DNA of 64,000 bases from Dichotomocladium elegans (Eukaryota > Mucoromycota > Mucoromycetes > Mucorales > Lichtheimiaceae): the NCBI GenBank assembly GCA_025716815.1, contig JAIXMN010000007.1, positions 389,501-453,500 on the forward strand. The letters run 5' to 3'. Positions within the stretch are counted from its first letter, which is position 1. Each line of letters opens with the position of its first letter. Below are positions 472-56,500 of this stretch, in pieces. The translations under genes were made by a program, and so were the position numbers. Below the pieces are notes generated by a model. The model had not been told where the DNA came from. It made no database searches and saw only the letters and a program-made list of their open reading frames with translations.

Positions 472-2742
472 CGATTTTGATGATGTAGCTGGTAGAAGAC
501 GTTAAGGGAGAGAAGAGAGAAAAAGAAAAGAAAATAAAAAAAAAAAGATAAAAGGAGAGGGGGAAGAACCAGTCTCCGGGAAGCACTTGGCCTTTTTAAA
601 TAGGAAGATATAGTATATAGCCCAAGTATGTTTCTACACATACACACCATCTGCTTTCTATAGACACCCCTGAAATGGTCCAAAACAACGGGGACATCTT
701 ACATGTACACGCGCATGGCGTAAGTTGGTTTTAGCCTTTATCATACGGTTTCTATTTTATTTTGGATAACTATGCAGTAAGACGAATTGTCTGTAGGAGT
801 GCAATAGATTCAGGGCCAAGCGCAGCCGCAAAAGGGACTCGACTCATACGTATTAGAAAACAGAGAAAAATCCGACATCTGATATGCAGTATCAATGCAG
901 AAGCCCTGGTAATTGCAATGCATTGATTCCTTAAATCGGTAAATCACCCCTTCCATTAGGGAGAGTGGCGGCTGGAGAGAGTGCGGCGAAGATAGTTTTC
1001 TTCATCCATTAACCGTAGAACGAAGAAAGATCTACTCGAACTCATACACCTCCGTTTTTTTTTTTTTTTGGCTGGTATATCGCTTCCCACACCCCAATTT
1101 AACTCTCTACCCCCCAAACTGTTCATTTGCTCGACAGCATTGCCAAAAGAAGAGAAAGAAGAAGAAAAAAAGGCTGAGCATCAGACAGGTTTCAAATGAC
1201 AACTTACATACAGAATGAATGCAATAGATAATAATCAATGACATAGTGTCATTTTCTCTCATCATCTCGTCATTTTGGATTAATATGCAAAGTGAAGAAC
1301 GAACAGTAGTACCACCACAAACTATGCCTTGCATGACAGCCAGTCATTATGCCACCGCTCCCATAGATATGGTCGACCATCCTAGTACCGGCATGTAATG
1401 ACATGCCTACCTATTTTGCCAGATGGATAAAAATGTGGGTATCGCGCTTGTGTGAGGCGGGTTGATCGACAATCCATCTGAGTCTGTCAATTATCGCAAT
1501 TCATTAGAAGTTTTCGTCAATAAAAAAAAAAACTCAATATGACGTGGGGGTGGGGGCCAGCATCTTTGTTATATTCAAAGCAGTAGAATGCTCGTGAGAA
1601 CGATGGGTGTCTGAACCCGCAACATTAACCAAAAAAAGGAATGAAAATAAGGACGGTTCCCACCTTCGACAACCATCTTAACAGGACCGCCAAGAAAAAA
1701 AATGCACTATTACAACAATCAAACCGATTCTCAGTCCGCATGGCATTGCCAAATGTATTACTGTTAATTGTCCAGCCCACATTAATTTAGCTCATATACC
1801 TTATATCGTATCCACTTTTGTAATTACAAAATATTTTGATGAGTCAGATTATCCGAAAAGCCAAAATATTTGATAATATCGGATAGCTAGGATTTGATGA
1901 CTCGGTGGTACAGTAGTATCCTGTGCGTAGATTAGACATACATGCCTGGAAATGTGTGGCAATTTTCATGTAGAGTGACAGCAGCCCGGGCAGACTGCAA
2001 AATAATGAATCACACCGCAAGACGAGAACTCGTGACTTTGTCATCACAACAGCCGATCCCTATCATACACACACCCATTATGATCCACGAAGCCAAATCA
2101 TGTAATGGCACGATAATTACACATATCGAACATATCAAGCTTCGATATGGAATACGGCCTAGTCCATGGTTTTAACAATCCCGGCAAGGACGGCCTGTGA
2201 ACGACTAGCTAGAATGACTTGAATCTGAGTATTGTTGGGTTGATTGGCCATTCAACAATAAACATATGCAAATGAGGTTGATGGATGAATACCCCACCCC
2301 CAAACCCACCGGTGCCACCTTGGAGAAAATCTTGGCTTTATCTCCATTTAAAGAGCAACTGACTAGGAAACGAATATGCATGAATCGAAACCCAGCAGCG
2401 AGACTCCGACAAAAGAAAAAAAAAAAAGTCAAGGGGGTGTGGAGGATCTGATGGACTGCAGTGTTGTTGTACAGCTCTGCCTTTTATCACTTTATTCCGG
2501 CCACTGGTTTGAGCAAGTTTGCCTGTTGCATCTGAAAAGCAGGGAGAGAGATATGCAAAAAGTTGACTTTGATGTGTATGTATTGTGCATGGATCTACTC
2601 CCTTCCCTCCCCCCATTCCCGAGATCCACTTAGCAACTCCCTGTTCCCTTTGCTTAGCAAGGAGCGTGAGTGGACCCATTAAAGTAAAAGAAAGTCTTTA
2701 TTTCTTTGTGTTCTTCGAATGGAATGCCTTGTTCCTTTTTTC
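472..2742. other. Intergenic: upstream of PMA1 and downstream of the GATA gene
   Basis: About 2.3 kb with no supportable gene. It contains poly-A/poly-T runs (about 535-547 and 1056-1068) and short purine-rich tracts. All open frames here are short and lack splice partners or recognisable motifs. The part next to position 471 must hold the PMA1 promoter and 5' UTR; no clear TATA box was identified. Confidence 0.6.
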
Positions 2743-4256
2743 TCAAGGCGGCTGTGCAACAAATGCCATGAAAGACTCCGGCTGGTCTTCCGTGCAAAGT
2801 GCAATCGGATGGCTTTCCTGTTCCGCATTGAGGAGCGTTCTTGGTGGTGCTGTTTCTGACGACTGCTGTACAGTGATAGATCCTCGTCTCATCAGTTTAG
2901 AATAATCTACAAAAGAACACAAAAGGTCAGCCTTCGGTGCCCGCCTAACAATGGTGGGAGGGGGAGCATTGCTACCCACGTAAGCCACAAGCATTGCACA
3001 GAGTTCTCGCACCATCTGGACCCCGGCGCCACTCGGGAGTCTCAGTCGTATGGCAAGAGTGACATCTCTGTCCTAGACTAAAATAAACAAAAGCCCCTCC
3101 ATTGTTGCTGTTAACAAGTTTTGCTTTCACCGGTCCATCAGGTCACTGCAAATACTTGCGTTGTTTTCTTCTGCAGAACATCATTGGTCAGCTTATTTTT
3201 GGTTCTTGCCGTTCTAGCAATCGTTCACAATCACTTACAGTCCGACGTCGATAACTTGTCCGTACACCATCTTGCAAGTTTCGCGCCCGGCGAATCGCTG
3301 CATATTCAGGCTGACATACGCATATGAGCTTCCCACATGCTCGTTATGATGGATTATTCATTTCCTCTCTTTTACTTTTTGGTCATTTTTATCCTGCGTT
3401 AATAACTGCAGCAGTTCATTTGCTTTCCTTGCGATGTCATCCAGTGGGCTTGGATCGGGCGAGTCGAGCCTGAGTTGCTGGATGTCTTGATACAGAGATG
3501 TGCAGGTGGCAATGGCCTTCATATATACCAATGAGAAGGATCAACCGAAGAAAGGGTGAGGAAGAGATGGTTGGTTTGTTACGTTGCTGTTAATACGGTT
3601 GATTCAAGGCGAATATGCGTATGTGCGTACGAGAGAGAGAAAGCAAAAAAAAAAAAAATACCTCGGAGAGGCGCTGTGGTAGTAGCAGTAGTGATGGTGG
3701 CGGTGGTGGCGATGGTGAGGGATCATTTTCATTTGTAGTCGACGGCGCTGCGTTGATCAGAGTTGTCGTTGTCGTCAAAGGTGGAAGGAACTCTGGTGAG
3801 GATGAAGGAGGTGTTTTGGATAGTACTGATGCTGTTGAAGGTATTAATAATGGCTGTGCAACGGGTGGTACCCTTGGGATGGCAGCTGTTCGAGTTATTA
3901 TCATATCATGTAGTTGCTGCTTATTCAAAAGCTGCGTTGCTCTTATTGGTCCAGCTGCGAAGGAGATTGTGGTCGTCGTTGCCCGTGGATCCCTTATAGA
4001 CGGTAACCGGCTATGTCAAACAGGGCGCTGCAATAAGAAATAACGCATTTTATATCACCCGAGCTTTTCACACACGCACACACACACACGCACGCCGATA
4101 GACTCCTGCTCTTTCTCGTCCTCTGGCAAGGTGTCGTACACTAGAATGACGCGAGCCAGAGAGCAATGGAGAGGAATGAAAGTCAACATACTCAGGTATT
4201 CGAGGATCCAGAGGCAAAGCTTCAGATGAAGGACGACACAATTCGGAAACGTCCAT
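2743..4256 (-). CDS. GATA-type zinc-finger transcription factor (X18 finger)
   Basis: Seven exons: 4192-4256, 3662-4010, 3376-3516, 3239-3310, 3156-3170, 2980-3067 and 2743-2906 (894 nt, 297 residues). The DNA-binding domain is near the C-terminus: Cys216-x2-Cys219, [20 protein letters not shown], Cys238-x2-Cys241, continuing HYSKLMRRG. The spacing is C-x2-C-x18-C-x2-C, the class seen in fungal NsdD and WC-2-like factors rather than the x17 AreA class. No PAS domain is visible, so it is not a complete WC-2. The finger is split by the intron 2907-2979, and a 15-nt micro-exon (3156-3170, KKTTQ) supplies part of the basic flank. The middle is Pro/Ser/Thr-rich (a GGTGGC-type repeat on the plus strand gives a proline run). 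It presumably acts in the nucleus at GATA sites; targets are unknown. The first intron contains a CA repeat (about 4074-4092), and the 5' exon choice is less certain than the finger. Confidence 0.82.
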
Positions 4257-39618: not shown

Positions 39619-42600
39619 TCATTTGCTTTCGAGATGCTTCGCTGTGGCGACTTGGAGAAGGTCGCTGTACTCGCCACTGCGTTCGCACATCTCGTTGAAG
39701 ATACCGCCCTTTCGTGTGATAAGGTTGTAGGGTGTATCAAACTCCTTCACCCTGCCCTGATCGAGCACAAGGATGCGATCATAATCGACGACGGTTCTGA
39801 TCCGATGGGCAATGCAAAGCAGCGAAGACCGGTTGAACTCCTTACGGATTGTCTGCTGGATTTTGTGGTCCGTGTCAAAGTCGACGGATGATGTTGCCTC
39901 GTCAAGGATGATCAATGTGGATCGTTTCACTAGAGCACGTGCAAGAGCGATCAGCTGACGCTGACCTTGCGACCAATTGCTCCCGCCCTCAAGCACAGGC
40001 GAGTCGAGCGTAATCTTCTTCTCGCTCTCGCCATTCTTGTCGTCAATGAGATGCGAGCGCTTCAGCGCTGCCCACAATTCCGCTTCGTCGTGCTGGTTAA
40101 ATGGATCAAGATTGTTTCTAAGCGTGCCTGAGAAGAGGACCGGATCCTGCGGAATGATCGTCAACCGTGATCGGAGGTCGCCGAGGCCGAGGGTCCCGAT
40201 GTCGACGCCGTCAATCAAGATACGTCCGTTGCTCGGTTCCATGAAACGGAAGATAGAGAGCGTCAACGTGGACTTCCCACTGCCCGTGCGTCCCACAATG
40301 CCGACTTTCTCAAACGGTCGCGTCTCAAAAGAAACATTATGAAGCACAGCAGGAGAATCGGGTGAGTAGCGCATCACAAGGTCCTCCACCTTCACACTGC
40401 CAGTCTCAGGCCAGCTCGCGGGCGGTTCGTTTTCAGGAATTCGAGCAGGCGCCTCCTCCTCGATGTTAAGGTATTCATGCACACGTTCGATAGAGTTCAT
40501 TTCCATCTCGAGCTGTGCGTACATCCGGACAATCCAGAGCACGTGCGCCGTGAATGTGAGCGCATAACTCAGGCAGAGACCTGCTAAACCTGGATCGACA
40601 GTGTTTCGGGAGATCACAACCACCAGACCTGTGCAGAAGCTTACAAAACTGCCTAGCAACTCAACGCGAATATGGAGCCAGCGGTTGGTTGCCCACATCC
40701 AGAGGAAGGGTCGGTTATTGTCGTCGATGCGCTTGAAATTCTCGCGGAGGAACCGCTGGTTCGCGCCAAATGCTCGAATGGTCGCGACGCCGTTTAGACT
40801 CTCTTCAAACTGTATATAGATCGGACTCCGGGACACCGAGTTGAGGCGCTTCATATCTCTCGAGGTCGCAATATAGTACGCACCAATCATCCAATAAAGC
40901 GCGGCAATCACAACTGCGGGCATGATAAACAATGGCATGACAGCAGAGATCAGCAGGACGACGCAGAGAGTGGAGACCACTGAGTAAAGAAACGTGCCAA
41001 GTGACATGGTAAGTTCTTGGTCGATTGTCCCAATATCAGACGAGAAGCGGTTGATAACTCGACCCAGAGGGGTTGTGTCAAAAAATCGCACCTTTGCACG
41101 CAGAATGCTGTGGAGGAGTTTTTCGTGCAACTGGTAGGAAGCGACCATCGACGCGTGCACCAAAGCAATATATTTGCCCGTGCTCATGATGAGTGCCACG
41201 ACACCGATGATAATGTAGATGCCAAGATAATAAACAATGTTGACTTCTTGCTTGCCGCTCTGCGGCACCAATAGGTTGCCTAACGGAGGTTCTTGAAGCC
41301 TGAAAGACCCAAGAGAGCTGACAGCATCACTTGTGATCACCTGCGTATCGCTGCTGTAATCTCGGTAAGCACTCGCCCAAACCTTAATCCAGTAGTCCTG
41401 CCCAAGAGTTGCAAGCTGCGTCGCGCCAAACATGAATATAATGATGAACCAGAACAGGTATCCTCCGGATGCGTGGAAATACGTCTTGTACACAGCCCAA
41501 GTCACGCTTCCTTCTGCGCGAGCCTCTTCCTTAATAAGTTTACCAGCACCATCTTCGAGCTTCTTTTTCACCGTCTTTGGAACTAGGGGAACAGCTCCAT
41601 CAACAGCCGCTTCTTCAGCAGCATCATCTGCTTCCTCGCTTTTTCGGTTCAGTTCGTCTCCAAGCGCACCGCTTTGGATTACCATTTGCGGATCACCACA
41701 GCTCACCACTTGTCCGTCCTTTAGCGCAACAACGTAGGACGCGTCCTTGATGCAGAGCCCAACATGGTGAGTCACCAGGATAACAGTACGGCCACGCACT
41801 GAAATACAACCGGGGCATTGAGTACATTGGACTTTTCCGTTCTAGGAGCTAAGGGCATTACTTACTCAGGTCGCCAGTAATGCAATGTTCATAAAGGTGC
41901 TTTGCAGTATGAGCATCTACTGCACTTAGACAATCATCCAATATAACTGTTGCTGCCTGGGAGTAAACTGCTCGCGCAAGCGCCAATCTGAGCGATGATG
42001 GGGATGTCTTGTAAGCGACAGTACCCGTGAAAAAATATGTCTTCACTAACCTTTGTTTCTGACCACCACTGAGCGTTACGCCCTTCTCTCCAACCTCTGT
42101 AGAGTCGCCGTATTCGAAAACGTCGAGATCTTTTGTCAGAGCAGTCGCGTACAGAACCTTTTCGTAACGGTCCTCATCGTATGGCAAGCCGAAAAGGATA
42201 TTGTCCTTGATGCTGCAATTCTGCAACCATGCGGTCTGTGCTACATAGGCGATTCCGGACACGGCGCCTCCAAGAGGACTGCGGCGGTTAGGCAGGGTAC
42301 GCGGGAGCCGGCTCTCGCCCTGGAAGCAGTAGGTCTCACCGAGAAGGCTCGACAAAAGCGTCGTCTTTCCGGACCCAGTCGGACCGCAGACAATGGAGAG
42401 TTTGTTCTGCGGGAAGGACAAATTGAGATTCTTGATGATTGCCTTGCTTTCGTCCTTTTCCCATCCAAATGTGGCACCACCGACAAAGCCAATCTTAACG
42501 CCGTCGAGGATCATTTGGCTGCCCTTGATTTCCACATCATCCTGATCCAAAAAGTCCTCGATACGCTTCACAGAAACGCGCGCCTGGAGAGCCCATACAA

Positions 42601-44791
42601 ACATCATGGGAAGCTCGTCGAGGGACATGCGTAGGATGTTAAAGAGGGCCAAAGCAGAGAAGGCGGTCGCTGCAGTTAGTTCATTTGTTCTGGTATACAC
42701 GTAGAAGACGACCACCATGATCATGATCGGGATGAAGAACCATGCGTTTGAGCTATGCATGAACAGCATGAGACGTTCACGAAGGACTTTGAGTTCAGCC
42801 GTTCGCGCCTTCAGCGTGCGTGAGTGGAGCTCATCCTCCCAGGCAAAAAACTTGACAATACGGATAGCCTGGAGGAGCTCGTTGACGACCTTGAGGCGCT
42901 TGTCTGTGGCAGTCATCACCTTGTCCTGTACTCTCTCAAATTGCTTGTTGAGGTACACCGTCACAGGCTGCGCAAGGACCATTACCAAGACGCCCCATAG
43001 AGCAGCTACACCCAGAAGCTGGTAAAGACAAATAATGCTGCCAATCAGTTGGACGGGGTATGAGTAAATGAAGAACACGTAGGATGAAAAGTCGCTGATT
43101 TTTTGCGAGTCGACAGATAGTAGGTTATTGACATTTGCCTTGGCCTTTGACTCTTGTTCTTCGTCCTCTGAAAGATTCACGGCACGCCGTCTCAGTGCCT
43201 TGTCGAACACTTCACCAACAACGATTGCTTGGATTCGGATACAAAGGGTGCGGCCAATATACAAAGCTTGCTGGCTGGCTAACGTTTCTGCCGAGGCAGT
43301 CACGAGCAAGGCAACCACATAAAGGTAAGCAGTCGATACGGGTTCGGTTTGATCAACGGCTTCGATGTAATTAACGATCTTGTTCAAGAAGATCGGAGGG
43401 CCAAGCATGCAAACTAGTTGTTTTTTTTTTACCCACGCCGCCGTTCATCACACGGTGAGTAAGAATGATCACAGTGGTATTGTTTTCTTTTTCGCATCGT
43501 TGACTTACCAGACCAGACCATGCTGAACAGGAACTGAGCAGCCAGCTCCTTCTTAAAGCTCTTCACAATACCCCACGCGACGGAATGGGATCGGTGCTTC
43601 TTGTACTCTCTAAGTATATGCTTTGCTCGGTTCTCTGCCAAGAGCTCGTCCAGATCGTCTTCGTTCAGGGTATTTTTGAACCCTTTGCGCATCGTATCTT
43701 CCATCCAAGAAAACATATATCGGGAGTATAGCGAGGCCCATCGTTCTCGTGAAAGTGGACGCCCCTAATAACGCAATCATCAGCCATCGATGCTCCTTGC
43801 AAATGCCCCGTATTTTACTTACAGTGTCTGTGATAACCACGGGGTCTTCAGGTTCGCTTCCTTCGTGCATGAGAACTGCCAGCATTGGGAGGGTGATACA
43901 TGCCGAAGCAATAGACAGCGAGTATCCGGTCGAGCCGATGGTCGTGTAATGTACAAGATAGAACGATCGTAAATCAAAGCAGTTGATAAGAAAATCACAC
44001 ACGAGCAGAACATTTAGTTGCTTGATGATTCGGGGACAAATGGCCTTTTTGCTGGAACCAGCAAAGGATAGATTGAGGAAGGACAACAGAAAAAGGGCGC
44101 CCTGATGAACATTGTATCTATCGTCAGCTTTTTTTCTGTTCCCTTCCCCTTCTCCCCATTTTTCTTTACCCAGAAAAGAACGTTGGTTCCAACAGAAATC
44201 CGCACGTTCATCCAAGAGCCCTCCACTCGTTCATCGAGCTTGTACTTCTGGTCACTGAGGTGACGGAAGGTTGCGCATGCCAGTCCAAAGTGAAGCAGCG
44301 TTCCCAAAAGCCTCGTAAAATTAAAAATTGTCCAGCGGGCCGATTTGGGTTCGAAAGTCGAGGCGATTGTACTTGGTGCGCGCGATGATGCAGCAGAGAT
44401 GTTCTCTTCTTCTTCTTCTTCGTTGTCGTCGTCGCGGGCGGTGCCATAGGAAACAGGGAGCGTATCTTTTATTAATGGTGAGTAGGCGGGTGATGAGGAA
44501 CGTCGATATTCAATAGCCGATCTCGTAATTGCACCAATGGCCCAAGCAAGGACGACGGTCGGAATCAAACTGTCAATGACACTAGAGAAATAGATTAAGC
44601 GGATTGTTCCCGAGTGACGATTTGCGATCTACGTACATTGCGCGGAAACACGGTGAGAAATCACCGTTCTCCCAGACGTCCTGCTGTTAAAAGAGAGAGA
44701 GAGCATATATTTCAGTCCACGAGTTTGTCTGGTGGTGGGGGGGGGGAAGAGCGAGACTGCGAGTATTTACGGATAGGCTGCAATGTGCCAT
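39619..44791 (-). CDS. ABCC (MRP/Ycf1-type) full ABC transporter
   Basis: Exports organic anions and conjugates using ATP; in fungi such proteins act at the vacuole or plasma membrane. Eight exons: 44771-44791, 44637-44683, 44170-44581, 43823-44101, 43509-43764, 42051-43413, 41866-41987 and 39619-41798 (4680 nt, 1559 residues). An N-terminal TMD0-like region (MAHCSLSQDVWENGDFSPCF then hydrophobic helices) precedes TMD1. NBD1 has Walker A GPTGSGKT (682-689), signature LSGGQKQR and Walker B VILDDCLSAVD with Asp in place of the catalytic Glu, the usual degenerate site of MRPs. NBD2 has GRTGSGKS (1336-1343), the ABCC-type signature WSQGQRQL and LIILDEATSSVD. An acidic run (DDDNEEEEEEN) lies in the TMD0-TMD1 region. 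The signature motif of NBD1 is split by an intron (41988-42050). The substrate cannot be told. Confidence 0.93.
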
Positions 44792-51337: not shown

Positions 51338-54178
51338 ATGCCTGCATCAAACGATCCTCGTTCGCCTCTTCTTCCAAACAATCGCGCCAACGGCCGAGAT
51401 GACCATTCCAATTGCGACAGCAATGAAGAAGCTTCCGAGACGGATTACGGCAGCGGGGTGTACAGATACCCTCTTTATCTCCAACCTGGACAATTCACGT
51501 CATTGGAGAAATTGATGTTTTTCATCAGCTCGATCCTGCTTATTTTTTTGTGCATCTTTATAGGGCTTTATGCCCGAAGCAGTTACAATGGTGTTCTGCC
51601 CCCCAGGCCAACTCCTTCCCCGACAAGTATCCCGGTTCCAATACCGTCTCCAAACAACTCTAAAGTAACTTAGATATGCATAAACACAAAGCGGGAAGAG
51701 AAGGGAGACAGCCAGTAACTTTCTCTTCCGAGTAGAGCTACTGTCTAAGCCCTCGCTGTGTAATGGTTGCCTCAGATATACTTCAGGTACGCTGTGAACC
51801 AAAGGACGAATCCAAGACTTTACGAGCGACTTGTTCTGTAGGATCTGAATACAGCAGTGGACCCGTGTGGCGATTTCTACACTTATGCATGTAAGATATT
51901 GACGGCCAGTGCATTCCTCGCGTCCTAAGTATTCGAATGGGGATAGGTGGCAATTGGGTCAACCGACAGTATCTGAATGAGGACAAGCCAAAGATCAGCG
52001 TCCTAACCCTAGCGGAGGAAGCAATTCAGCACCGTCTTGCTCAGCTGATCAACGGTCATCCGAGCAAGACTCAACCACATGACCAGCTACCATCACCGGA
52101 TGATATCATTGACAAGCAGCTCAAATCAAAGCTGCGAGACTTTTACGGGGCATGTATGGATGAAGACGCCATCGAACGTGCAGGAGTGCAGCCGTTTTAT
52201 CCAACTTTCCGGGCCATCCGTGAGCTTCTCCCGCTTGATCGAAATACGTTAACCCGACCCATCGCCAGCAACCTCAGTCGCACTCTGAGCTATTTAGCTC
52301 AGCGCAATGTATGGGCTCTTTTCACACTTGGGATCCGTCCAGACCGTCGACAACCGCAGCGTTTAATGGTGTCCTTGGGTCCTGGAGAACTCGGGCTACC
52401 TTCACCGAAATATTACAATGACCCAGAGATGGTTTCTACATACATGTCGGTTGTGGCAGATATTCTGGAAGCGGTCTTCAAGAAAGACACCAAGAACGAG
52501 TTTGGGTGGGGATCATGGAGCAGTGTGGCGACAGCTCGGCGTATTGTCGAGTTCGAGCAACGGATTGCACTGATGGAAGATGGGGACCCATCACCACATG
52601 ATTTTGAATATTGGACCATCGAGCAGCTTCAGCATGCAGCCCCAAATATTGAATGGGCTACGGTCATGCACGGTCTTGTACCCCCGGGTATCCCGAAAAT
52701 TCAGAACATCCTTGTTGCTCGACCTGCTTTCGTCACCCAGCTCTCGCAGATAGTCGTCGAAGATGCAAACACCCGCACACTGCAAACATACCTGATATGG
52801 CGAACGGTGTGGAAGTACCTTGATACTTTAGGCGAAGAGTTTATAGCACCTCGTCGCAGACTCTATGCGAAACTCCTGGGCCTCGAAGTTCGTGCAAGAC
52901 ATCCACGCTGGCAATTCTGTCTTTCTCAGGTGGACGCATCACTCGGTTTTCTACTAGGGCGATATTTTTTAAAAGAAAACATGGATGAACGTGCAGCTGT
53001 CCAGGTCGAGGATGTCATAAAAAGCTTAACAGATACATTCATGAGCCGTCTGGACCAGTTGGATTGGGTTGCGGCCAAAGACGAGGATAATATTGCCAAC
53101 AAGGTATCCGCACTGACCATCCCCACGCATTTAATGCTCGATGAGGATCTGCTTAATCCAACGAAAACCAATTCACATTTAGATGAAGTACATGGACGCC
53201 GAAGTTGGGTATCCCAGATCAGGCCCAGATATGGGCTCGAGCATATCACTTGCCGAGTACTATGAAAAAGTGGATGTTGATCGGGCCCATTTTTTTCAAA
53301 ACGTTCTTGGAGCAAATCAGGCAGCCGTCAAGCGTAGTTGGGCTCACTTGCGTGAGCCAACTGGCGCATGGCCTTGGGATATTACACCGCAGCATCTCGG
53401 ACTTGAATATCATCCGAGTCTGAATAAGGTACAGCAATATCAACGTATCAAAAACGGAGATTATAGAGTGGCCATATAATACGTTCGGCAAAAAAAAAAA
53501 ACTTAGCTCGAAGTACCCGGAGCGATGCTCGGAGCTCCATTTTACGAAACATATGCGCCAGAATACTTGAATTATGGTTCTCTTGGTGTCACCATTAGTC
53601 ATGCCACCTTGGAGGGATTCGACACGATCGGAAGGCTGATCAACGACGAAGGACGAATCGGCTCCTGGTGGTCAAACGAAACCCGGGAAGCTTACGATAG
53701 AAAATCGAAATGCTTCGCTTCCCAATACTCCGGTTTCTCTGTACAAGGACCGGATGGAAAAGAGTACCATGTGGATGGCGAACGGACGCTGAGCAGCAAT
53801 ATTGCAGACAACGGTGGTTTGCTACTAGCGTATATTTCGTGGCAACAACGGTTTGAGAGCGGAAACTATAACAATAAGCTGCTCCCAGGGCTTGACGCCT
53901 GGACACGAGATCAACTATTTTATATCAACTTCGCACGCATGTGGTGCAGTAAGAGCACTGCGGAAAATGACATGCATGACGTGAGGGTTACACGGATATG
54001 CGGCGAGGCTCAATGAATGTGTGGCTGAAACAGATTTCGTTAGGTATTGGTTGGGATGCATGCACCCGACAAATGGCGTGTAAACGGTGCGGTCATGAAC
54101 TCTGAACACTTTGCATCTGCGTTTTCGTGCCCCGTAAATTCCGCAATGAACCCTCGCAATAAATGTAGTTTATGGTAG
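51338..54178 (+). CDS. M13 (neprilysin-family) protein with destroyed zinc site: pseudopeptidase
   Basis: Seven exons: 51338-51664, 51736-51786, 51842-51890, 51947-53103, 53183-53428, 53507-53980 and 54044-54178 (2439 nt, 812 residues, normal family length). It is a type II membrane protein: cytosolic N-terminus, TM helix ~59-79 ([18 protein letters not shown]), Pro-rich linker, then an M13 ectodomain beginning [14 protein letters not shown] and [15 protein letters not shown]-terminal family text is complete ([47 protein letters not shown], final CSLW). However, the zinc motif HExxH is HATLE (642-646), the third ligand Glu in ENIAD is Ser (SNIAD, 707-711), and the substrate-binding N-A-(F/Y) site reads LEYHP. 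The reading frame is intact through seven exons, so it looks selected as a non-catalytic protein. Function unknown, perhaps binding. Confidence 0.9.
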
Positions 54179-54723: not shown

Positions 54724-56500
54724 ATGAAATTCGGAAAATTGCTGGAGAATGAAGCCGAAAGCTTTCCGCCCGAATGGCGGCCGTATCTGATCCGCTACAA
54801 GACACTCAAGAAGCTGATCTCCAAAGTGACGGACGAATTAGAAAAGCATGGTCTTTCGGCCGCCGTTTTACGAGAGTATCTCGACGACAGCATGGACGAC
54901 GATCCTAGTGGTGGCCCTAAAATACAATATTACTTCTCAGGTGCCTATCGTTGGTAGAGAGTGTTTGCTAGGTTCAACACCAACTGATCCGACTGTATCT
55001 TTGGGTTGGGTGGGGATGGAAAAAAGGCGAGCCTCCCAATAGTCACCCGTGCATCGAGATTATCTACGATCCGACTCAATCACGGCTCGAGGAGCTTCTA
55101 GGGCAAATCACTTTGGAAAATGGGAGCGGTGCCGAGACGGTGACCCCTGGACCGTCCTCAGCAAGATCCCAGCTGCGATATAAACGAACAGAGAATGACA
55201 CCGACTTCTATACCCTCGGCGAGGAGTTTGGGAAGCACGCCAAAGTGGAAGACGGCATATCCGGCAGGTGCAGTGACATCGATGACGTTCGTATTACAGA
55301 AATTACCGACGGCGAAATAGCTGAGACTGCACAGAGTCTGCCGGCCATCAAGAAAGAGTTCCGAAGCCTCGTCATCGAACTCGAACGCGATGATGAGTTC
55401 TTTCAGATCTTGACAGCTGAACTGCAACAAGGATCGGTCCTACAGGACATGACTAGGAGGCGCTTTGAGCAGGACGTTAGCGCACTCGAAAAAAGAATGA
55501 CCAAAGTGGTAAGTAAGCAAGTTAATGATATTGCTGGACCAAAAAAAAATCAGGCAGCAGAGAGAAAACGGCCTAAATGCGATCCAGGTTTCTCCAGGGC
55601 ATGCAGCAGACATGTATACCTGGCGGACCATCTTTAGCATATACATGGACGCTCAGATCTTCAAAGGTAAAGTAGAGCACGACCGAAGCATCCGTTCCGT
55701 CGAGAAATCCAAAGCACAAATGGATTGGTTCCTTGGTCAGCTGGAGGAAAAGCGTCTTGTGTCCAAGTTTAAGAAGGGCGTCTCGAGGGAATCATTTGAC
55801 CAGTTTATTGCTCTAAACGCCGAGCTTCTCACTTTAAAGCACTATCAGCTTTTGAACCAGACTGCCGTGACCAAAATCCTCAAGAAGCACGATAAACGCA
55901 GTGGACTCAAGTAAGACACGCGTACACACACACACATATATATATATATTCTAATGGATACTTCCACATCCATGGATAGTGCGAGCACTAGTTTCCCGAG
56001 CTTCATCAAGGAAAGCAAATTCTTCAGCTCTGGCCTTGCGGATATCCTGTGCGCTTCTGTCCTAGGGGAATTGATGAAGATCATTCCCCAGCCAGATGAC
56101 TATCGTGAGTACATGCTCTGGACTAAAAACAATGATATATAGATATTAATCGAGCGCAGTATGTCCGGTCTGTATGTCTGTTGCTTGGCGTCCCATCCGT
56201 CTGGTCTGTGGACATGTATTCTGTGTTCGGTGCCTCATCAAGGCACAGAAGAAGAAAATGGAGAGCTGTCCTCTCTGCCGCCACCCGACTGCTGTCAAGC
56301 TAGCCAGCTCGTTAAACCTCGATATACCAATGCAAAATTTCCTCAAACTCTATTTCCCAAAGGAGATCAAGCAAAAGAAAAAGGAGAATGAGCGTGAGCA
56401 GGCTATTGAAGACGTGCAGGCCATGACTGGACGCAGATATACGGAAGAAGAGCTGATGCGCATGCACGCACGCTCCAAGCATTCATGTTACATTATGTAA
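54724..56500 (+). CDS. SPX-RING E3 ubiquitin ligase with C-terminal CaaX-like motif
   Basis: Five exons, 54724-54953, 55043-55508, 55558-55910, 55992-56104 and 56160-56500, give 500 residues. The N-terminal SPX domain starts MKFGKLLENEAESFPPEWRP and is interrupted by a charged insertion (about 100-200). SPX domains sense inositol pyrophosphates and so phosphate status. The C-terminal RING is C3HC4: Cys389-x2-Cys392, Cys404, His406, Cys409-x2-Cys412, Cys424-x2-Cys427, with WRPIRLVCGHVFCVRC. This architecture matches plant NLA and fungal SPX-RING proteins. The last four residues are Cys-Tyr-Ile-Met, a farnesylation-type CaaX box, which would tether the ligase to a membrane; that is inference. 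The donor of intron 1 and the acceptor of intron 2 have alternatives. Confidence 0.9.

Follow-up and report, generated by a model that had tools for sequence, protein, structure and literature searches.

A predicted membrane-anchored M13 pseudopeptidase of Dichotomocladium elegans and its relatives in many Mucorales genera

Introduction

Drosophila genes of the M13 (neprilysin) family that lack key catalytic residues were noted by Bland and others (PMC2259306), and 21 Drosophila Nepl genes are predicted to be inactive (PMC8223033). For one of them, Nepl15, binding of peptides without cleavage has been suggested (PMC7822871). Gone early (Goe) is a type II membrane M13 protein in which both zinc motifs are absent and whose extracellular region can attenuate EGFR signalling (PMC4242634, PMC11266112). 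Fungal and yeast pseudopeptidases are exemplified by Ecm14 (family M14), Tma108 (M1) and the yeast MPP alpha subunit (M16) (PMC11266112); here and below, what we say of these papers is limited to excerpts of their text. The open-licence literature searched yielded no description of an M13 pseudopeptidase in fungi. Here we describe such a candidate, encoded in a stretch of 64,000 nucleotides of the Dichotomocladium elegans genome (assembly GCA_025716815.1, contig JAIXMN010000007.1, positions 389,501 to 453,500), referred to as the window.

The window protein resembles Goe in that Goe is a type II membrane M13 homologue without HExxH and ExxA/GD that acts non-catalytically (PMC4242634, PMC11266112). 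However, Goe is an insect protein and its extracellular region is necessary and sufficient for the overexpression effect, whereas the Mucorales protein is most conserved in its anchor; the two are compared here by description. The Nepl proteins are likewise M13 homologues in which motifs for catalysis are missing, and the substitutions of Nepl15 are conserved across a genus (PMC7822871, PMC8223033). In contrast to the membrane-anchored Mucorales protein, 18 of the 21 have no predicted transmembrane (TM) domain and are predicted to be secreted (PMC8223033). Moreover, the loss shared among Mucorales concerns the third zinc ligand and the NAY motif, with HExxH often kept, unlike in Nepl. Ecm14 is comparable as a conserved fungal pseudopeptidase of unknown function, but belongs to family M14 (PMC11266112). 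With neprilysin and endothelin-converting enzyme 1 (6svy, 1dmt, 3dwb) the window protein shares the fold (by model), the CxxW terminus, the clamp Arg and conserved cysteines, whereas those enzymes have preserved their zinc ligands, general base and NAY. Its sister at C36 of the same genome (P0041) and an Umbelopsis protein (P0046) have the same membrane M13 architecture, but with HExxH, ENxAD and NAY intact; the Umbelopsis protein also shares the QPGxFTSLEKL anchor with the pseudo-copy. The kind of protein is thus already known; what seems new here is its occurrence as a lineage in fungi, the stepwise inactivation of that lineage and an anchor that has hardly changed.

We favour the reading, at a probability of about 0.5, that this is a type II membrane M13 pseudopeptidase kept in many Mucorales, whose anchor would place a binding ectodomain.

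Results

An intact gene for a member of the M13 family

The gene lies on the plus strand (51338..54178), and its seven exons encode 812 amino acids plus a stop in a frame that is open throughout. All six introns are GT-AG and measure 55-79 nucleotides. A D. elegans database protein of 430 amino acids, P0023, equals residues 383-812 of our model exactly, including the altered zinc motif HATLE described below; this deposited model begins within exon 4. The N-terminal half (residues 1-382) is that of the present model: no D. elegans record matched it, and orthologues align throughout. As weak further evidence, codon usage as learned from the C36 sister scored best in the modelled frame for each of the four exons examined (4-7), although exon 7 stayed below zero even there.

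The protein consists of an N-terminal cytosolic part, a single TM helix and an ectodomain that matches both M13 profiles of Pfam, namely Peptidase_M13_N (1.3e-78, residues 134-539, 265.5 bits against a curated cut-off of 32) and Peptidase_M13 (5e-48, residues 604-811, 163.9 bits against 24.5). Hydropathy reaches its maximum of 2.9 at residue 59, and the structure model of an orthologue has a helix at 52-78. In addition, the protein has the neprilysin fold by model. By its profiles, predicted fold and C-terminal CxxW, the window protein is a member of the M13 family by descent.

Loss of the zinc-site and substrate motifs

Active M13 zinc peptidases are recognised by HExxH, the third ligand in ENxAD, and NAY/F, and the window protein has none of the three (Table 1). 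Neprilysin residues are numbered as in the human enzyme, a numbering that we assume in part and take in part from an excerpt of PMC7822871; it is consistent with the chain offset in our alignment to rabbit neprilysin. The window protein does retain H642, the first His of HExxH, and two second-shell aspartates, D649 and D711. HATLE is not explained by a single sequencing error, since the change from HExxH would take several base changes. Furthermore, neither HExxH nor EN[ILV]AD occurs in the six unspliced frames over the whole gene span. Being an M13 homologue without the catalytic motifs in an intact frame, the protein is a pseudopeptidase in the motif-based sense used in PMC8223033 (excerpt), and these substitutions make it very probable that it is not a zinc peptidase.

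A preliminary description of this locus, made from the letters alone, had reported HATLE for HExxH, SNIAD for ENIAD and the loss of NAY, together with a frame intact over seven exons and a retained TM anchor and C-terminal Cys. All of this was borne out by the gene model, the 812 open codons and the CxxW, and HATLE recurs in P0023. The description had also stated that every zinc ligand motif was lost from a retained fold. The motifs are indeed gone and the fold is kept according to the model, but not every ligand has disappeared, as H642 remains.

Table 1. Features of the M13 pseudopeptidase gene in the window
Feature	Residues	Coordinates	Strand	Basis
M13 pseudopeptidase, coding exons		51338-51664, 51736-51786, 51842-51890, 51947-53103, 53183-53428, 53507-53980, 54044-54178	+	gene model
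Anchor: cytosolic juxtamembrane segment and TM helix	38-84	51449..51589	+	orthologue conservation
TM helix, type II, N-in by family analogy	59-79	51512..51574	+	hydropathy
GLE at the NAY substrate-binding position (neprilysin N542, A543)	601-603	53399..53407	+	alignment
Exon 6, zinc-site region		53507..53980	+	
HATLE replacing HExxH (neprilysin H583, E584, H587)	642-646	53600..53614	+	alignment to rabbit neprilysin
SNIAD replacing ENIAD; third zinc ligand (neprilysin E646) changed to Ser	707-711	53795..53809	+	alignment
His (neprilysin H711) and Arg (neprilysin R717), both retained	774-780	54059..54079	+	alignment
C-terminal CxxW (CSLW)	809-812	54164..54175	+	sequence and orthologue alignment

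The losses are shared by a lineage in many Mucorales genera

Related sequences were collected in three protein searches, in which candidates were gathered by shared words and a limited number was scored; the searches are not exhaustive. From the matches we chose 19 pseudopeptidase sequences, called here the pseudo clade, which comprise the window protein and records from 18 species and represent 18 genera. They were set against 25 canonical or outgroup sequences (22 of the 59 matches in one search plus P0008, P0009 and P0039). Omitted from the counts were P0023, which is the same gene as that of the window, P0025 and P0027, which lack the catalytic half, P0040, and P0028 to P0038, for which Pfam gives the N-terminal domain alone. 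Counts of 18 arise because the HExxH exon is missing from the P0006 record, and because P0022 (Syncephalastrum) offers no aligned residue at the third ligand. D. elegans belongs to the Lichtheimiaceae of the Mucorales; the placement of the other genera in this order is presumed by us.

The third zinc ligand Glu is kept in none of the 18 pseudo-clade sequences covering the position, the Asn of NAY in 0/19 and the equivalent of Asp709 in 0/16. Since no covering sequence has the third ligand or the Asn of NAY, the disabling losses look ancestral. The window protein is thus not the single odd copy as which it had been presented; aligning the zinc region of its orthologues revealed shared losses. 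The equivalent of H711 is kept in 8/16 sequences, and that of D650 in 19/19. Both the Cys and the Trp of CxxW are present in all 17 sequences covering them, and, apart from one sequence at position 117, the further cysteines that the canonical set conserves are found in every sequence covering them.

HExxH itself is intact in 13/18 pseudo-clade sequences. It has been lost in the window lineage (HATLE) and in four others, namely Fennellomyces (HQILH), Lichtheimia (REILH), Spinellus (QNILH) and Syncephalastrum (HALMP), although P0022 (Syncephalastrum) and P0020 may carry gene-model faults near the site, which renders their losses less certain. Parsimony gave at least three losses of HExxH on one tree and at least four on another. 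The distribution of the motifs suggests that loss of the third ligand and of the clamp probably came first, predating the divergence of the sampled lineages, and that HExxH disappeared afterwards on several occasions. The stages of inactivation, from a lost third ligand with HExxH intact to the loss of all motifs, and the existence of a motif-intact sister within these genomes let the order of loss be traced.

By alignment, all 25 canonical and outgroup sequences keep both His, the general base and the third ligand, and a motif scan of 97 proteins found a contiguous HExxH in 24 of these 25; in the P0007 record (Jimgerdemannia), 16 inserted residues separate HE from the second His of the alignment, and this record was counted as intact by alignment. 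The Mortierella alpina record P0063, which was not used, has ENIAD and NAY without a contiguous HExxH, where a gene-model fault is possible. As a warning for annotation, P0017 and P0020 are named endothelin-converting enzyme 1 in one source.

In each of three trees, a branch with 100/100 support divided the 19 pseudo-clade sequences from the other 25, and the clade was monophyletic when the tree was rooted on animals. In the free trees, the motif-intact Umbelopsis copy joined the pseudo clade, with supports of 97.1/100 (full alignment), 97.6/100 (ectodomain) and 54.8/67 (catalytic half). An approximately unbiased (AU) test with 5000 resamplings, which is below the number advised by the program, rejected neither a pseudo clade sister to the intact Mucorales copies (p 0.116) nor Umbelopsis grouped with the intact copies (p 0.134). 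Pseudo and intact copies were both found in eight species: Dichotomocladium elegans, Fennellomyces sp. T-0311, Zychaea mexicana, Circinella umbellata, Phycomyces blakesleeanus, Spinellus fusiger, Mucor flavus and Apophysomyces ossiformis, for which the pseudo record lacks the catalytic half.

The gene is probably not decaying

A frame of 812 open codons over seven exons, 43-52% identity between the window protein and the seven pseudo-clade sequences compared, and an anchor that is 65-93% identical among the pseudo-clade sequences covering it all argue against a decaying pseudogene. The faster change of the pseudo clade is what decay would predict: over 28 species pairs, the median ratio of pseudo to intact distances was 1.40 for the full alignment and 1.64 for the catalytic half, where the Phycomyces-Spinellus pair runs in the opposite direction and the Apophysomyces pair mixes two species. 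A truly broken copy looks different, however. A PF01431 profile search of the same genome found seven places, the window included, and the seventh (L014, C33:380500-385500, about 1480-3320) has interrupted frames and a stop codon immediately ahead of its C-terminal motif. Its contrast with the intact window gene indicates how a decayed M13 gene looks in this genome. Decay, which was already disfavoured, is therefore extremely unlikely, and the conservation among orthologues indicates that the window protein is in all likelihood maintained.

The membrane anchor is the most conserved part

At an amino-acid identity of about 50%, synonymous sites are expected to be saturated, and rates were accordingly compared at the protein level rather than as the ratio of nonsynonymous to synonymous rates (dN/dS). 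Rates of segments were expressed as changes per unit tree length, relative to each clade's own pace, and compared with those of the motif-intact Mucorales copies. The juxtamembrane segment of the pseudo clade changed at 0.13x (0.04-0.27) and the TM segment at 0.30x (0.16-0.52) of the intact-copy rate. The zinc region reached 1.32x (1.12-1.62) and the remaining parts of the protein 0.83-1.15x; because the pseudo-clade tree is longer, its parsimony counts become saturated, and the near-1 ratios of fast segments are probably underestimates. With the strongest conservation in the juxtamembrane and TM segments, a role that depends on the anchor is favoured.

We also compared both kinds of copy to the intact proteins of the earlier-diverging Umbelopsis, Endogone and Jimgerdemannia. 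In the anchor, the pseudo copies were closer to these proteins (+0.23, confidence interval (CI) 0.115 to 0.350), as they were in the anchor core at residues 53-80 (+0.235, CI 0.103 to 0.377). In the ectodomain, on the other hand, the intact Mucorales copies were closer (-0.13, CI -0.157 to -0.108). The CIs come from column resampling and ignore the relatedness among the sequences. The contrast between anchor and ectodomain was unchanged without Umbelopsis, and each copy seems to have retained a different ancestral part.

Discussion

Lack of activity, selection for function and a binding or scaffold role are what we infer from these sequence comparisons. In the proposed course of events, duplication of a membrane M13 gene would have given two copies, one of which (C36 in the D. 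elegans genome) retains the zinc-site motifs. From the other copy, the third ligand, the Asn of the substrate clamp and the counterpart of Asp709 would have disappeared before divergence of the sampled lineages, with fold and anchor retained, and the window lineage would subsequently have lost HExxH. The conserved cytosolic and TM anchor might then set the ectodomain at a membrane site or partner, where the ectodomain might bind a protein or peptide without cutting it. This anchor-centred binding or scaffold mechanism is a tentative proposal, which we hold at somewhat less than even odds. Somewhat less probable again is the wider scenario in which, after duplication, one copy kept a cutting ectodomain while its anchor drifted, and the other kept the ancestral type of anchor, dropped catalysis and became a widespread scaffold or receptor; if true, this would be a fungal M13 pseudopeptidase lineage that works through its membrane anchor rather than through the old cleft. 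In any case, the deeply conserved anchor is a concrete place to seek the function.

Several observations weigh against this reading. It is drawn from sequences and models. The anchor comparison relies on about five intact Mucorales sequences that are poorly aligned upstream of residue 53. The NAY region (1.15x) and the zinc region have the highest relative rates, which speaks against a conserved ligand of the old cleft. Among the matches listed, Absidia, Cunninghamella and Halteromyces have only motif-intact copies, and no Rhizopus record was found, which in a non-exhaustive search does not imply absence; the lineage is spread over many Mucorales genera, and its presence throughout the order may not hold. 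Finally, HExxH is intact in most of the pseudo clade, its two His columns show two changes each against a median of five over the C-terminal columns, and a weak or altered metal site may exist outside the window lineage.

These last points could be explained by a shifted metal site, in which lineages with an unbroken HExxH would use another third ligand, perhaps the acidic residue before the lost Glu, the window protein being a late loss. Position 706, directly before the lost zinc Glu, is Asp or Glu in 10/18 pseudo-clade sequences (judged by eye) and Gly in canonical enzymes. However, the column of the general base (E643) shows four changes, the Asp709 equivalent is gone in 16/16 and the H711 equivalent in 8/16 sequences, and the window protein has Ser at both 706 (53792-53794) and 707. 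A scan of the 13 HExxH-intact sequences for columns with a new Asp, Glu, His or Cys passed 15 columns, none of which was evidently positioned to stand in for the lost Glu. We consider a shifted site very improbable.

The ectodomain could also act as a peptide sink or decoy, holding peptides in the old cleft and shielding them from active M13 enzymes. Such a role has been proposed for Drosophila Nepl15, and PHEX is cited as an example of substrate binding without catalysis (PMC7822871, excerpt). A retained fold is indicated by model, and the equivalent of R717 (R780 in the window protein) is kept in 17/17 pseudo-clade sequences. The NAY clamp, on the other hand, is lost and fast-changing, with 10-13 changes in each of its columns; 84-98% of the C-terminal columns change less. 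Furthermore, the position of W693, an S1' residue, is Trp in the window protein alone and something else in the other 18 of 19 sequences. Hence we regard a sink as unlikely.

A similarly low probability is assigned to a regulatory partner of the motif-intact sister, which would pair with the C36-type protein through anchor or ectodomain and steer its trafficking or activity. The occurrence of both copies in eight species and the nearly frozen anchor of the pseudo-copy are compatible with this. Nevertheless, the juxtamembrane segment of the intact copies is not conserved in step (0.92 versus 0.12 changes per site and unit), and a co-evolved pair of anchors is not evident. The preliminary description had proposed a new role for an intact non-catalytic M13 protein, as receptor, scaffold or peptide sink. 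The maintenance of the orthologues does suggest a role other than that of a peptidase, while the choice among the three cannot be made by sequence; we still prefer the anchored binding ectodomain.

Other M13 loci and neighbouring genes

The remaining M13 loci of the genome (C36, C1, C112, C33 near 164k and C68) all have ENxAD, NA[FY][FY] and the start of HExxH. At C36 the motif is present in one piece (HELTH), and in the other four (L010, L011, L012 and L013) an intron apparently splits the motif after HEFT or HELT, so that the following exon supplies the second His. This splitting intron is a spot where exon-wise searches may miss the motif. The C-terminus at C112 reads KASVW and not CxxW. 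The C36 sister (L009, reverse strand) apparently has a GC-AG donor (GCAAGT) in one early intron; the deposited model P0041 differs at this intron and is short by a few residues.

The next gene downstream of the pseudopeptidase gene, on the same strand (54724-56500), contains pieces of an SPX domain followed by a RING finger. The combination of SPX and RING occurs in phosphate-sensing ubiquitin ligases. On the minus strand (39619-43444), ABC_membrane and ABC_tran domains were matched by two open frames lying side by side, which probably form one intron-containing ABC transporter gene.
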